A stretch of 64,000 nucleotides of DNA, taken from positions 21,514 to 85,513 of the forward strand of contig JAHQWJ010000136.1 of assembly GCA_029856125.1 (NCBI GenBank). Reading direction: 5' to 3'. Below the pieces are notes generated by a model. It ran no database searches. It was not told the DNA's origin and worked only from the letters and a program-made list of their open reading frames with translations. This document shows positions 4,654 through 58,931 of the stretch, piece after piece (positions within the stretch are counted from its first letter, which is position 1; every line of letters starts with the position of its first letter). This stretch comes from Promethearchaeia archaeon. Its GTDB lineage: Archaea > Asgardarchaeota > Lokiarchaeia > Sigyniarchaeales > SOKP01. A program made the position numbers and the translations under genes.

Positions 4654-5928
4654 TTATATCGGTGTTTCTGCTCCCCACAGATCTAATGCTTGTTTTAATT
4701 CAGCATGAGTTTTAGCGTATTCTTTTACGCTAATGTTATCCATATAAGCATCAATTGCTTGCCTTAAGGCCTTCGCACCGCTTCGTGTACCACCGGGGTG
4801 ACCAAGCACACCTCCTCCGACTTGAACCGCAATATCCATTGATAAAAGCTCTATTAAACGATGAATTATTCCTGGATGTACTCCTCCGGAGCATACGCTT
4901 AAAACATTTTTCATTCCGTACCAATTCTGCTCTAAGACCTCTAAATCGGCCTTGTTAGAATTTTGAGCAATCTTCTTATAATTATTCAACACTTCTGTTT
5001 TATCACCTGCTAATTTTCCTAAACCTCCAATGTGGAGCTGATCTACGCCTTGCATTCTCGCTATTTCAGCAAGTACTTTCATGCTCATCCCGTGATTTGG
5101 ATTTCTATCAAATGCAGCATGAAACGCTCTATGAGCATGTATCGCTAAACCTAATTTTTCACATTCCTTTCTAACTGTTTGAACAGCCGCCCAACCAATA
5201 GTCAATATATCGATCATAACATATTCGTTGTTAAAATCTTTTACTAACTTCGCGCGACGCTTCATTTCGTCAACTTCAGAGGTAATATTTATTAAATAAC
5301 TTTTTCTTTCTCCTGTTTCATTTTCTGCTTTATCTCTCATTTTCATACTAAGGTCGAGCCTTTTTTCGAATCTATTAAACCTCTGATTCGATAAGTTTTC
5401 GTCGTCTTTTAATAGATCTACTCCTCCTGTCCAGATTTCGTACCCGTGTTGAGCGTGCTCCTCTGCATAATACCCTACTTTTGGTTTCGGAACAGTAGCT
5501 GTAATTGGTCTCTTCTTAACTTTAAGTAAATCCCTAATTCCCTTTATCCCATACTGAGGGCCTTTAAAGGAATTTAATATGTTTTTAGGCCACTTCACAT
5601 CGACTAACCTTAGACCATCTAAAGCTTTCATACCAAAAATATTTCCGGCAATAGAACTTAAAATTTGAGGCATATTTCCTTCCTCAAATAAATCGTTGGG
5701 ATATGCGATTTTAACATAACTATCATTTATATCATAAACTTTAGCACTTAAAGCTCGAATATGTTCAGGAATTTTAAGTGTCGTCCAAGTACCGTTACTG
5801 CTTTCAGCAGCAACCCTAATAGCTACTTTTTCAATTGAAAAACCGCTGGCAGGTTTAATTTTAAACAAACAAATTAGGTCTTCCTCATTTGGTTCATACG
5901 CTAAATCTAAAAAATCTTCATATTTAAT
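4654..5928 (-). CDS. rbcL: Form III RuBisCO large subunit
   Basis: This is a ribulose-1,5-bisphosphate carboxylase most like archaeal form IIIb. All main active-site motifs are visible: AESSNGTWTT, GNIFG, VPKPKVGY, GGVDLLKDDEN (carbamylated Lys plus Asp/Glu), HAHRAFHA, LHIGGLGKL (loop 6 Lys), SGGVHPG and QVGGGVLGHPGG. It should be catalytic, not a RuBisCO-like protein. The track starts at TTG 5868. Conserved N-terminal sequence (YEDFLDLAYEPNEEDLICLF) continues upstream to a stop at 5941-5943, with no ATG, GTG or TTG. I place the start at ATT 5928, six bases after the Shine-Dalgarno sequence GGTGAT (424 aa). Loop 6 looks two residues shorter than in Thermococcus. It follows R15P isomerase, implying the AMP salvage pathway. 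Confidence 0.93.
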   Translation of the reverse strand: MKYEDFLDLAYEPNEEDLICLFKIKPASGFSIEKVAIRVAAESSNGTWTTLKIPEHIRALSAKVYDINDSYVKIAYPNDLFEEGNMPQILSSIAGNIFGMKALDGLRLVDVKWPKNILNSFKGPQYGIKGIRDLLKVKKRPITATVPKPKVGYYAEEHAQHGYEIWTGGVDLLKDDENLSNQRFNRFEKRLDLSMKMRDKAENETGERKSYLINITSEVDEMKRRAKLVKDFNNEYVMIDILTIGWAAVQTVRKECEKLGLAIHAHRAFHAAFDRNPNHGMSMKVLAEIARMQGVDQLHIGGLGKLAGDKTEVLNNYKKIAQNSNKADLEVLEQNWYGMKNVLSVCSGGVHPGIIHRLIELLSMDIAVQVGGGVLGHPGGTRSGAKALRQAIDAYMDNISVKEYAKTHAELKQALDLWGAETPI

Positions 5929-5950
5929 TTCTAAATCACCTTAAACTTAT

Positions 5951-6901
5951 TTAAATCATATCTGGATATAACTTTGTAAAGTAATTATGCACATGGCTAC
6001 TCGCAAAAATTCCCGCCTCTGTAATTAAACCGTCTATGTACCTCCTACTTACAGTTTCAAAGGCAGGATTTAAAATTTCTAGACCTGCTGGTGGATTTTC
6101 CCATATCTCTGAAGTTTCTCGCATTTCAATTTTTTCAATGACGCCAAATGAAGTTTGAGGATTATATTTCAAAAGGGGAGTAGCAACATAAAACGGAACG
6201 TGTTCTTCGTGGGCTACTAGAGCTAATAATCTTGATCCTATTTTGTTTAAAACGGTTCCCTCGCTTGTAACGCTATCTGCTCCGATAATAATAAGATTAA
6301 CCTCGTAGTGATTTACAGCCCACCGCATAGCACTATCCACGACATGATAAACCTTTATTCCGACGTCTAATAACTCTTTCGCTGTTTGTCTTCCTTGAAG
6401 GCGAGGTTGGGTTTCGGTATTTATCACATTAAAGTGTTTACCTTGCTTTTTTGCTTCTAATAGGATACCTGTTACCACAGATGAGTGACAATGTGTCATA
6501 ATGAGATAACTATCATCTGATTCTACAAAAGGAATTCTTCTAGCTCCAATTTCAGCAATTTTTTTTTTAGAATTATGAATCATAGCTTGATATTTATTTT
6601 TATAGCGATTGATTAACTCCAAAAAGTGATCTTCCTTGAATTCGTGTTTAGGTTTTTTCAATCTATTTATTATGAAATTAAGTCCATTTCTCAACGCCGG
6701 CTCAGTTGGGCGTGCTTTAAACAGTATTTCCTTTGCCTCTTCTAATTTGTTTAAAAACTCTTCAGCAGTATTGTAATCCGCTAGCCTTTGGGCGTAACTA
6801 TTCAAAAAATCGATAGCACTTAGAGCTACATTTGTCGCTCCTTGTATTTCTAGCGATTTAATCTTTTCAGCATCTATTAATAATTGTTTAATTTCAATCA
6901 C
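5951..6901 (-). CDS. Ribose-1,5-bisphosphate isomerase (eIF2B-related, e2b2 type)
   Basis: A 316-residue member of the eIF2B/MtnA/R15P isomerase superfamily. It shows IQGATNVALSAIDFL at the N-terminus, THCHSSVV with the catalytic Cys, ETQPRLQGRQTAKEL, IIGADSVTSEGTVLNKIG with the catalytic Asp, and the C-terminal NPAFETVSRRYIDGLITEAG. In archaea this enzyme converts ribose-1,5-bisphosphate to ribulose-1,5-bisphosphate for RuBisCO. The RuBisCO gene directly downstream (22 nt after this stop) fixes that reading over eIF2B-alpha or methylthioribose-1-phosphate isomerase. The start is GTG at 6901 directly after an in-frame TAG. An alternative is ATT at 6892, spaced four bases from GGTGAT as in RuBisCO. 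Confidence 0.92.
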   Translation of the reverse strand: MIEIKQLLIDAEKIKSLEIQGATNVALSAIDFLNSYAQRLADYNTAEEFLNKLEEAKEILFKARPTEPALRNGLNFIINRLKKPKHEFKEDHFLELINRYKNKYQAMIHNSKKKIAEIGARRIPFVESDDSYLIMTHCHSSVVTGILLEAKKQGKHFNVINTETQPRLQGRQTAKELLDVGIKVYHVVDSAMRWAVNHYEVNLIIIGADSVTSEGTVLNKIGSRLLALVAHEEHVPFYVATPLLKYNPQTSFGVIEKIEMRETSEIWENPPAGLEILNPAFETVSRRYIDGLITEAGIFASSHVHNYFTKLYPDMI

Positions 6902-6949
6902 CTATTTTTTCTTAAGTAATATTAAAACAACCATGATTTTTCAGTGTAT

Positions 6950-34218: not shown

Positions 34219-34439
34219 AGCAGAATCACTATTTGTAAGATAATTTTTCAACTATTTATTTTTTTTGGCAAAACTATCGCATTTTTTCCATATTAAAAGA
34301 AAATCTAAATATCCACATTGCATATTTTGTTATTACCAAATTAATCTACTAAAAATTAAATTTATTAATAAGAACTTTTATAATTTTTAATGGAAGTGTT
34401 AAGTTTTTTAGGTGAGTTACTTTTCCTCTAGGTATTTGT

Positions 34440-35057
34440 TTGATTAAGTGGGATGTTGTTCTTGGTGGAAATATATACATGAAGTTTCCGGAACATTTAG
34501 AGATTCTGGATAATGTAGTGCAACAAATCCAAATTTCACACAATTTTATTGAATCCTACATTACTATTGAAGAAAAAAATTGGAACTCAATTTCCTACTA
34601 TAACGAAAATAGGGAAATAATCATCGTATTAGTATTAGATAAGTACGATGACGGTTCAGATTACACTGTTATATTAGATGAATTTAAAAGAGAGCTCGAG
34701 TTAGAACTAAGCGAAACTGAGCTTAAAAACCACTTGGAAAGAATCTATAACTTATCTTTAAATGTGTTTAGAACTCGAGATGAAGTAATAGGGAAATTAA
34801 GCAATCAAGTCGCTCAACTAAAAACTATGGAATACGACTTGAAAAAACGGTTTGAGAAGATCGCTAGAGCAGACCATCTTAAAGTAAAAAGCAAAATCCA
34901 ATTCTTGTTAGCTGTAAATAACGAAATGAAGCATAAAGACCTATATAAAGTGATTGACACTAGCAAAAATTGGTTAGATAAGGTCTTAGAAACTCTTAAA
35001 AAGAACAAGATAATTGGATATAATGAAACAAAGGATACATATTACCTTATTATTTGA
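34440..35057 (+). CDS. Longin/roadblock-like protein with C-terminal helix-turn-helix
   Basis: A 205-residue protein. The N-terminus (IKWDVVLGGNIYMKFPE) has the strand-turn-strand look of longin-type proteins in Asgard genomes (pattern WDxxLG...P). An alternating alpha/beta region and a coiled helix follow to about 140. The C-terminus (DHLKVKSKIQFLLAVNNEMKHKDLYKVIDTSKNWLDKVLETLKKNKIIGY) looks like a winged helix. I do not know a named family. The track start is TTG at 34440. The open frame extends eight codons upstream to a TGA without ATG, so the start is uncertain. Confidence 0.5.
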   Translation: MIKWDVVLGGNIYMKFPEHLEILDNVVQQIQISHNFIESYITIEEKNWNSISYYNENREIIIVLVLDKYDDGSDYTVILDEFKRELELELSETELKNHLERIYNLSLNVFRTRDEVIGKLSNQVAQLKTMEYDLKKRFEKIARADHLKVKSKIQFLLAVNNEMKHKDLYKVIDTSKNWLDKVLETLKKNKIIGYNETKDTYYLII

Positions 35058-56027: not shown

Positions 56028-56894
56028 TTATCTATTTATGATTTCAGTAATTTTTTCAGGTACTCTTGTAGTAATCCTCCGATTCAACACCATCGTTTGG
56101 TACTCCATGTCCTTTCTATATTGGTTCGCATACGAAATTAACTGCTCGATTATATCAATTTCTTTCTCAGCATCACTAATAAAATACCCTCCAAAACTGT
56201 GTATTTCAGCATAGTTCTTCTTAAGAATTTCCTGAAGCTCACCGGGTAACACATCGGTTCTATCTTTTAATGCTGAATTTATGGCATCAAGCAAACTTTT
56301 ATATCTTTCTTGTTTGCCGAACTGACATACTACGCATTTCGAGCTTCTATTTTTAAGAATATAAAGTATTATAATGCCAATTAGGTATCTAAAAGATTCG
56401 ACTACTTCATTAAATATACCTTTTTTCATGTATTTCTTCACGATAATTTCTGCAATTGAATATAAACTTGAGAAATATATGGCTCTGGAAAAATAAGCAG
56501 GGTCAACACAGAACAATCGTGTAAACCAAAATGGGCTAATTTCGTGAGGTGGATCTTCGTGAAAGATATAGTATACTAATCTTCCGTCTCGTTCTTTGTA
56601 TAGCGTCGTTTCTCTTTTGAGGATGTTTAAATAGGTTGAAATAGTGGAACGAGCGATATCTTTAAAAAATTTCTTATATTCTAATTCTACCTCATGTGTA
56701 GTGACTTTTTTTTTACCCTCGAGAAAAAATTTAAGCATGATACCTAAAATTCGATTCTCGTGAAGTCTCCCCGTTTTTATCTGTTGTTGCTCGTTCTCGT
56801 CTTCCCTAATGTTATAAATATCAATTAATTCAGGAGCGATTTCGTGAATTATTTTTTCTAATATGTAAACATTTAATTCAGTAATTTCTAACAA
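56028..56894 (-). CDS. Winged-helix regulator upstream of acyl-CoA synthetase genes
   Basis: A 288-residue protein. The N-terminal part has an HTH-like helix set (ILGIMLKFFLEGKKKVTTHEVELEYKKFFKDIARSTISTYLNILKRETTLYKERDGRLVYYIF), with the recognition helix at STISTYLNILKRE and a wing. The C-terminal half is helical, with SKCVVCQFGKQERYKSLL. I know no exact family. The start in the track is TTG, directly after an in-frame TGA and a GAGGA; ATT at 56885 would give better spacing. It is on the same strand as two acyl-CoA synthetase genes, and may control them. Confidence 0.65.
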   Translation of the reverse strand: MLEITELNVYILEKIIHEIAPELIDIYNIREDENEQQQIKTGRLHENRILGIMLKFFLEGKKKVTTHEVELEYKKFFKDIARSTISTYLNILKRETTLYKERDGRLVYYIFHEDPPHEISPFWFTRLFCVDPAYFSRAIYFSSLYSIAEIIVKKYMKKGIFNEVVESFRYLIGIIILYILKNRSSKCVVCQFGKQERYKSLLDAINSALKDRTDVLPGELQEILKKNYAEIHSFGGYFISDAEKEIDIIEQLISYANQYRKDMEYQTMVLNRRITTRVPEKITEIINR

Positions 56895-57101
56895 TCCTCA
56901 AAATTGATTTTTTTTCTAAATTATTAAAAAAAATGTAAACTTTTAATAATATTTATTCTAGTTAACTAGAATATTGTATGCAACATATAAAACTCCTATA
57001 AAAATGGAAAATTTAGTAATTTTTACATAATCATATTAAAAAATTAAAAAATATAAAAAAAATAAAAGAATTCTAGTTTTTTACGACTTCTATCTTGACG
57101 G

Positions 57102-58931
57102 TTATTGACCGTATTTTTCTTTCCAGATTGGATCGTTGATTTGTAATATCCTACGCTGAACTTTACCAAGGATATTTTTAGGAACTTCCGTGATAAACTC
57201 GATTTTTGCTGGACACTTCCATTTCGTTAAGTTTTCTTGCGTCCAAGTAATCAATTCCTCTTCAGTAATCTTACCGATGTATTCAGGTTTCAATTCAACC
57301 CAAGCTTTTGTGATTTCGCCGACTTTTCCTGCGGGATCAGGTAGACCAGAAACTGCTGCTTCAGACACTGCTTCGTGCTTCATTAACATCGATTCCACCT
57401 CTTTTGGAAAAACCGAATGTCCTGCTACTTTAATCAGTTGCTTTTTTCTGTCTCTGATCTCAATAGTTCCATCTTCATTCATAAAACCAATGTCTCCAGT
57501 TAAGAGCCATAATTTTCCTTTATATGTTTTAATAGTGTCGCTGGTTTCTTCAGGTTGATTGAGGTATTCGTACATAATTTGAGGACCGTGTACACAAATT
57601 TCACCAGTGTGTTCTTCTCCAAATTTAGTATCGTCCGGATTGCCTAAACAAATAGGTCCATCGTCAAAATTATCCGTTGGCCATATTCCCCATTCAGTGC
57701 CTGGGACGGGTAATCCTATAACTCCTATTGGACTTTCACTAAAAAGATTGCCTGCGCTAACAAGAGGCGAAGTTTCTGTTAATCCGTAACCTTCAACTAT
57801 ATTACCTCCTGTGTTATTTACAAAAGCATCTCGTACCGGTCGGTGTAGAGGTCCAGCTCCTGACGCACATAATTTTAATTTACCCATCACTCCCGGATAT
57901 TTCCCTTTGACATTTGGAAAATCGGCTAATCGCTTAAACAAAATTTCAGCACCGGCATACACTAATCCTTCTGGGGCTGGTAATTTTTCAATGTGTTCTA
58001 ATAGTTCTTCTGTGGGTGGAGGGGTTGGGAACATCATTATCCATCCTCCAAATGCGATAGTTGCGTTCATAACTATTGTATGAGCAAAACTGTGAAAAAA
58101 TGGAAGTACCCCAATATTTCCTATTCCTGGTTTTTCACCACCAAGCCAATATTTGGACTGATCCGCATTAGAAACTGCATTAAAATGAGTCAATACAGCC
58201 GCTTTTGGTACTCCTGTTGTTCCACCGGTCATTATATATGTAACTGGGTGCGTTTTGACATCGAATTTAACTTCCGGAACGTTTGGTTTAGTGTTTAATA
58301 AATCCATAAATTTAACTGCGCCGGGGACATTTACTTTTCCCTTAGGAATGATTCCTAGTTTCTTTCCTAATGCACGTTTAATACCTAAACCGTGTGCTAA
58401 ATCAGCAAGATTAGTATAGATGACTTTTTCAACGGTACTTTTTCCCAGAATCCCTCCAATATAAGGTAAATTTTTCTTTATTCTAGATTTGCTTTTCTCG
58501 TCAAAGAAGGCATCGTAAGCAATTAAGTATTTAGCGTTAGTTACATCTAATTGGTGCAATATCTCTAGTGGTTTATATGTTGGATTAATTCCCGAAGCGA
58601 TTGCTCCTATTCTTGTTATTGCAAAATAAGAAACTACATATTGAATACAATTTCCCATAAGTATAGCTACAACCTCGCCTTTTTTAACGCCTAGGTCGTG
58701 AAGCGCTGTTGCAAGGCTTAAAACATAATCGTGGAATTGACGATATGTAACCCATGTCTCCAAAAACCAGATAAAATTCTGCTCGCTATATTTTTCCACT
58801 TGAGCGTCTAAAAATTGATTTATCGTTTTTTCTTCGAATGTAACATTCTTTGGAACGTTATCCGGCCACCACTTTTTGAACCATATTTTATTTTCATTTA
58901 CTTGATAAGTATCTTCTTTTATAATAGGTAT
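57102..58931 (-). CDS. AMP-forming acyl-CoA synthetase, copy 1
   Basis: A long-chain-type acyl-CoA synthetase: TYIMTGGTTGVPKAAVLTHFN (P-loop), EGYGLTETSPLVSAG, WLLTGDIGFMNEDGTIEIRDRKKQLIKVAGHSVFPKEVE and the catalytic lysine in GKVQRR. The track begins at GTG 58799. Homology to the sister gene continues upstream (KIWFKKWWPDNVPKNVTFEEKTINQFLDAQ) to a TGA at 58938-58940, without any ATG, GTG or TTG. The start is probably ATA 58931 or ATT 58925, about 11-17 nt after the expected transcription start. This adds 42-44 residues. The product activates a fatty or other acid to its CoA ester. Confidence 0.92.
   Translation of the reverse strand: MPIIKEDTYQVNENKIWFKKWWPDNVPKNVTFEEKTINQFLDAQVEKYSEQNFIWFLETWVTYRQFHDYVLSLATALHDLGVKKGEVVAILMGNCIQYVVSYFAITRIGAIASGINPTYKPLEILHQLDVTNAKYLIAYDAFFDEKSKSRIKKNLPYIGGILGKSTVEKVIYTNLADLAHGLGIKRALGKKLGIIPKGKVNVPGAVKFMDLLNTKPNVPEVKFDVKTHPVTYIMTGGTTGVPKAAVLTHFNAVSNADQSKYWLGGEKPGIGNIGVLPFFHSFAHTIVMNATIAFGGWIMMFPTPPPTEELLEHIEKLPAPEGLVYAGAEILFKRLADFPNVKGKYPGVMGKLKLCASGAGPLHRPVRDAFVNNTGGNIVEGYGLTETSPLVSAGNLFSESPIGVIGLPVPGTEWGIWPTDNFDDGPICLGNPDDTKFGEEHTGEICVHGPQIMYEYLNQPEETSDTIKTYKGKLWLLTGDIGFMNEDGTIEIRDRKKQLIKVAGHSVFPKEVESMLMKHEAVSEAAVSGLPDPAGKVGEITKAWVELKPEYIGKITEEELITWTQENLTKWKCPAKIEFITEVPKNILGKVQRRILQINDPIWKEKYGQ

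Follow-up and report, generated by a model that had tools for sequence, protein, structure and literature searches.

At which codon does the translation of a gene begin when its conserved N-terminus lies upstream of the first conventional start codon in its frame? Common gene callers accept only ATG, GTG and TTG. The RuBisCO gene considered here lies in a stretch of 64,000 nucleotides of contig JAHQWJ010000136.1 (the window), from the genome of a Promethearchaeia archaeon of the Lokiarchaeia (G000), and the initial annotation had proposed that it starts at AUU. Archaeal start codons named in a review are only AUG, GUG and UUG (PMC7531240), and the literature searched, outside which subscription papers and preprints mostly remained, yielded no archaeal gene described as starting at AUU or AUA.

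Reading frame and start column of the RuBisCO gene

The features of the RuBisCO locus are:

4654..5928, minus strand: coding sequence of the predicted form III RuBisCO, 424 aa when begun at the ATT; TIGR03326 match and orthologues 81-95% identical over residues 1-424
5926..5928, minus strand: proposed RuBisCO ATT start codon; the same column holds ATT (four genomes), ATG (one) or TTG (two)
5935..5941, minus strand: Shine-Dalgarno sequence AGGTGAT, 6 nt before the ATT; exact complement of the genome's own 16S 3' tail, TGAT invariant in the seven orthologues
5941..5943, minus strand: in-frame TAA closing the frame upstream; in the orthologues an in-frame stop precedes the start column by 1 to 7 codons

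On the minus strand the frame reads TAA(5943-5941) GGT GAT TTA GAA ATT(5928-5926) AAA TAT GAA GAT TTT TTA GAT TTA, and this reading confirms that ATG, GTG and TTG are absent between the TAA at 5943 and the TTG at 5868, as had been claimed. That TTG, the first NTG in the frame, sits inside the conserved N-terminus, and the claim that this N-terminus is encoded upstream of it is borne out by the TIGR03326 match and by orthologue conservation. The predicted protein scores 614.7 bits against TIGR03326, the form III RuBisCO equivalog (cut-off 497.45), with profile positions 1-426 of 426 falling on residues 5-418, and solved form III chains align to the ATT reading from residue 3. Because profile position 1 is found at residue 5, a start at ATT leaves the N-terminus complete, whereas a start at TTG 5868 loses a conserved stretch (after the Met, the residues KYEDFLDLAYEPNEEDL). 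Judged by these matches, the window gene is a full-length form III RuBisCO; its carboxylase activity is inferred. The same genome encodes a second protein of the RuBisCO superfamily, 36% identical (G000:C90:6978-7991, L002), and most relatives carry both.

The ATT at 5928 was also correctly placed six bases after GGTGAT (5940-5935), a motif that extends to AGGTGAT. The 16S rRNA of the same genome ends in ...CTGCGGCTGGATCACCTCCTATTTTT, with the anti-Shine-Dalgarno tail GGATCACCTCCT (also given as GGATCACCTCCTATTTTT). This tail is complementary to AGGTGAT over all seven bases, so that the Shine-Dalgarno sequence (SD) is a perfect seven-base one.

RuBisCO orthologues with at least 81% identity are present in 7 of the 65 genomes of the family, the window's own included. 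ATT occupies the start column in the window, in G013 (JAGXNS, 95% protein identity), in G017 (JAGXNP, 92%) and in G008 (JABXKD, 87-88%); ATG is found in G007 (JAHQWP), the only ATG species, where the SD context is the weaker AGATGAT; and TTG is found in G006 (RDOA) and in G019 (RDOE, 81%). An in-frame TGA directly precedes the TTG of G019, and consequently fixes the column. AAA TAT GAA GA(T/C) follows in all seven orthologues. Coding conservation begins at the ATT or at the next codon: the codons preceding the ATT in G008 differ from those of the window, and GGT GAT TTA GAA is not conserved in the divergent relatives (87% and 81%). A lone ATT could arise by chance in AT-rich DNA, but its presence in four genomes at precisely the same orthologous start column is beyond chance.

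A 72% identical RuBisCO (L038, contig JAUWZX010000001.1, labelled Parvarchaeota) has ATG at the corresponding place. This protein, on a contig labelled DPANN, is closer than the copies in most Lokiarchaeal genomes of the same genus (about 50%), which suggests gene transfer or a mislabelled bin.

Alternative accounts of the RuBisCO start

Single-base errors are known in metagenome bins and ATT is one base from ATG, so that an assembly or base-calling error might hide a true ATG, or a missing base might bring an ATG into frame; a one-base error was the alternative offered in the initial annotation. However, the identical ATT is present in three further genomes (G013, G017 and G008) that belong to two or more distinct submissions (JAGXN and JABXKD records), the upstream DNA differs in G008, and ATG or TTG stands at the same column elsewhere, which rules this explanation out for practical purposes. 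It is very improbable that the protein starts at TTG 5868 and is 20 residues shorter: this is the first canonical start codon in the frame, but its use would remove the first positions of the form III model together with residues that every orthologue conserves, and in some orthologues the upstream column is itself ATG or TTG. Furthermore, the SD has no role in a start at TTG 5868, and the next NTG lies elsewhere in G008.

Two other possibilities lie close to the ATT itself. An out-of-frame ATG at 5921-5919 (ATG AAG ATT TTT TAG) is followed by a run of six U, directly after which its frame stops, and a one-base slip back on this run could restore the RuBisCO frame. We give this very little credence, since the ATG merely results from the conserved Lys-Tyr-Glu codons and is seen as well where an orthologue starts at a good ATG or TTG, the run is broken in G006 (GAC TTT TTA), and slippage would replace the conserved Tyr-Glu-Asp. 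Initiation at GAT, TTA or GAA, between the TAA and the ATT, would be compatible with the open frame, and UUA is one base from UUG, but these codons lie within the SD or right next to it, they align with no NTG, and the 87% and 81% relatives do not conserve them; a start there is very improbable. Fusion with the upstream gene, or readthrough from it, was rejected: frames and spacer lengths differ, and TGA directly precedes the start in one orthologue.

The alignment of orthologues, with ATT (four genomes), ATG (one) or TTG (two) at one and the same column, thus supports the proposal that the RuBisCO gene starts at AUU. The case for this start is strong, although it is made without N-terminal protein evidence or any other protein data, and all the genomes are metagenome bins.

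Probable near-cognate starts and Shine-Dalgarno sequences in the lineage

The initial annotation treated the AUU as an isolated oddity. In this respect it has to be revised, because near-cognate starts are many in the lineage and include that of the next gene upstream, whose end is 22 nt from the RuBisCO ATT:

5951..6892, minus strand: R15P isomerase/eIF2B-family gene, from its likely ATT start; PF01008 221 bits, TIGR00511 232 bits, below the cut-off of 314.1
6890..6892, minus strand: likely start codon of the isomerase-like gene, an ATT shared by six of seven genomes; alternative GTG at 6899-6901
6897..6903, minus strand: Shine-Dalgarno sequence AGGTGAT, 4 nt before the isomerase-like ATT

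The score lies below the cut-off of the R15P isomerase equivalog TIGR00511, and the protein passes only the broader TIGR00524 (194.2 vs 185.85) and PF01008; it can be called isomerase-like on PF01008 and gene context alone. The conserved N-terminus of this protein, IKQLLKDAEKIKSLEIQGA, has ATT as its first codon in up to six of the seven genomes, G019 having ATG instead. In G008 and G007 the codon immediately before the ATT is TAA and there is no NTG upstream, so that the start cannot be further upstream there. The window, G013 and G017 have a GTG three codons upstream that overlaps the SD and is still a possible start.

For a wider survey, genes from the window and from further parts of G000 were aligned with those of five congeners, and antisense frames and over-extensions were removed. 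In 12 orthologue groups of the genus, one genome or more has AUU, AUA, CUG, ACG or GUC at the start column. Gene names without a family search rest on our reading of the translations.

RuBisCO: ATT
Isomerase-like gene: ATT
Acyl-CoA synthetase (AMP-binding; PF00501 and PF13193), 57102..58931, minus strand, from its likely ATA start at 58929..58931: ATA in G000, G013, G017 and G008, ATG in G006; GTGA precedes the ATA by 6 nt, an in-frame TGA lies 3 codons before it, and the first NTG after it is 44 codons away
NEKDFQ gene: ATG (three genomes), ATT (two), CTG (one)
Aldehyde-oxidoreductase-like gene: ATT/ATG
18389 gene: ATT in G019, ATG in four
SDR-like gene: CTG/GTG/ATG
62937 gene: ACG/ATG
Pop5-like gene: GTC (two genomes), ATA (two), ATG (G019)
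31949 gene: CTG/TTG
CinA-like gene: ATA/ATG
22466 gene: ATA in G019, TTG in five

Two further candidates came from a scan of G000 for strong SDs that uses no homologues. One is a TatD-family gene that reads (I/M)LIDVHCHI from an ATT directly after TAA, 5 nt from GGTGAT (TIGR00010 position 1 is at residue 2, with a score under the model's cut-off); the other is a metallo-beta-lactamase-like gene with ATA directly after TAA. A second genus of the family has an ABC ATPase with ATT in four species, the next NTG lying 28-52 codons downstream, and another gene with ATA versus TTG. Near-cognate starts were assigned in G000 to 7 of about 160 tested genes, roughly 4%, a small sample with no non-Asgard control. 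The survey covers one genus and a small part of another, all as metagenome bins. Many of the automated flags were false (they marked open frames on the antisense strand, over-extended N-termini, genes split by UGA and a split aIF2-gamma), and these were removed by hand or by counts of substitutions by codon position.

The presence of an SD varied with the strength of the codon. By hand count under a strict rule (SD of 5 nt or more, 4-8 nt before the codon), 22 of 29 near-cognate gene-by-genome cells carried an SD, against 1 of 19 AUG cells of the same 12 groups; under a looser rule (4 nt or more, 3-9 nt before the codon) the near-cognate figure was 27 of 29. When all conserved starts were counted, the rates were 4/189 for ATG, 2/41 for TTG and 4/16 for GTG, with a random background of 2.1%; the rate at conserved AUG starts is equal to background. 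Strong SDs 5-7 nt before an in-frame codon numbered 36, versus 10, 1 and 5 in three control patterns, and the commonest codons behind them were TTG (7), ATT (6), AAT (4), ATA (4), CTG (3) and ATG (only 2). The homologue-free G000 set alone, which is noisier, gave 19 sites (TTG 3, ATT 2, ATA 2, CTG 1 and others). Cells within one group are not independent, and consequently no probability is given. Furthermore, the column search was blind to the SD, but the SD was weighed when true and false starts were told apart by eye, and this inflates the contrast by an unknown amount. The trade-off between weak codon and SD agrees in direction with the remark in a review that SDs are not prevalent in an annotated Lokiarchaeal genome (PMC7531240).

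Taken together, there is good support for near-cognate initiation across the lineage in these archaea, within the limits of a small sample and of predictions that lack protein data. A more general proposition is that Lokiarchaeia routinely start at AUU, AUA, CUG, ACG and perhaps GUC and UUU, given a strong SD, in about 4% of genes, and that SDs mainly serve weak starts while AUG does without; we hold the arguments for and against it to be evenly balanced.

Two other genes of the window have unsettled starts. At 34416-35057 on the plus strand, AGGTGA lies 6 nt before a TTT, and FPLG(I/V)C(L)IKW is conserved from the TTT onward in six genomes with mostly third-position changes; the start is either UUU or a TTG nine residues in. 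At 56028-56897 on the minus strand, G006 and G019 have no NTG at the gene start, only ATT or ATC after GAGGAT or GGGAGGATC, and the other genomes have TTG three codons upstream.

Interruptions of another kind were also seen. The aIF2-gamma gene at G000:C136:18992, about 2.5 kb before the window start (L070, also L198; further loci L195, L196, L197 and L199), has a hairpin-like insertion of 29-30 nt that splits the P-loop GHVDHG|KTT and brings in a stop or a change of frame. G000, G013, G008 and G006 have the insertion, whereas G017 and G019 lack it; of 24 genomes of the genus, 7 contain a single copy of the insert motif, which is also found in L194 and L200. It is possibly a tiny archaeal intron, yet it folds no better than shuffled sequences and has no clear bulge-helix-bulge. 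At G000:C84:32854-33894 on the minus strand (L073 region), 73 codons of coding conservation directly follow an in-frame TGA that is present in four genomes, without NTG or SD, and this could be a protein with UGA read-through (Sec) or a split gene. Several conserved frames of Hdr-like genes in a second Lokiarchaeal genus (L174-L193) are split by in-frame TGA, for example in GECDYETGN and SLCTEPGAEF; these are probably selenocysteine codons.

Proposed mechanism and known systems

We consider it highly probable that RuBisCO is translated from the AUU at 5928 by SD-dependent initiation, as one case of a wider Lokiarchaeal near-cognate habit. AGGUGAU would pair with the 16S tail and position the 30S subunit with AUU in the P site, where initiator Met-tRNA (anticodon CAU), whose use is inferred, would pair on two of three bases and the mismatch would be tolerated. 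The protein would then begin Met-Lys-Tyr-Glu-Asp-Phe. While the sequence, the conserved column, the SD and the absence of NTG are observed, it is by inference that the strong SD would offset the weak codon, with output probably below the AUG level, and that translation may depend partly on ribosomes leaving the gene 22 nt upstream. More widely, AUU, AUA, CUG and probably ACG and GUC would serve as starts when an SD is present. There is no evidence of a regulatory role for the AUU.

The use of SD/anti-SD pairing and the presence of an encoded SUI1-domain protein are shared with archaeal SD-dependent initiation (PMC7531240; PMC6237735). Archaeal aIF1 has been reported to disfavour non-canonical starts and to make mRNA with an SD bind the 30S subunit more strongly (PMC6237735). 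Given the SUI1 protein encoded in this genome, aIF1 appears to be present; this discrimination counts against near-cognate initiation.

In Escherichia coli, infC and pcnB are the two AUU-initiated genes of the species (PMC9410913). As here, AUU stands behind an SD in a normal chromosomal gene and weak initiation is expected; unlike here, the system is bacterial, with IF3 proofreading, two genes per genome and autoregulation of infC, whereas the present case involves archaeal machinery (aIF1, aIF2) and several percent of the sampled genes. The best-tested analogue is provided by Staphylococcus aureus cvfC1 (AUU) and ccpN, which with infC has AUA; reporters gave about 10% of AUG expression (PMC13009471). 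There too a conserved AUU or AUA start has an extended SD aiding the weak codon, and a metabolic regulator is among the genes; however, those are a handful of bacterial genes whose starts have been shown experimentally, while the RuBisCO case rests on sequence comparison. Three features of SD-assisted AUU initiation are present in the RuBisCO sequence, namely the lack of a canonical start at the conserved N-terminus, a conserved column that holds canonical starts in orthologues, and an SD complementary to the 16S tail at 6 nt; the protein N-terminus and a reduced output are inferred.

Form III RuBisCO and R15P isomerase occur together in the pentose bisphosphate (AMP) pathway of Thermococcales. 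The present locus resembles it in that a full-length form III protein adjoins an eIF2B-family isomerase-like gene, and differs from it in that both genes begin, on our reading, at AUU and the isomerase falls below the TIGR00511 cut-off.

The best reading of these results is that gene callers miss these SD-dependent near-cognate starts, although protein-level proof is lacking. If this is true, the N-termini of Asgard proteins, central metabolic enzymes included, would be systematically wrong in annotation. Furthermore, the stringency of start-codon selection in the closest archaeal relatives of eukaryotes would bear on the origin of eukaryotic scanning and near-cognate initiation.
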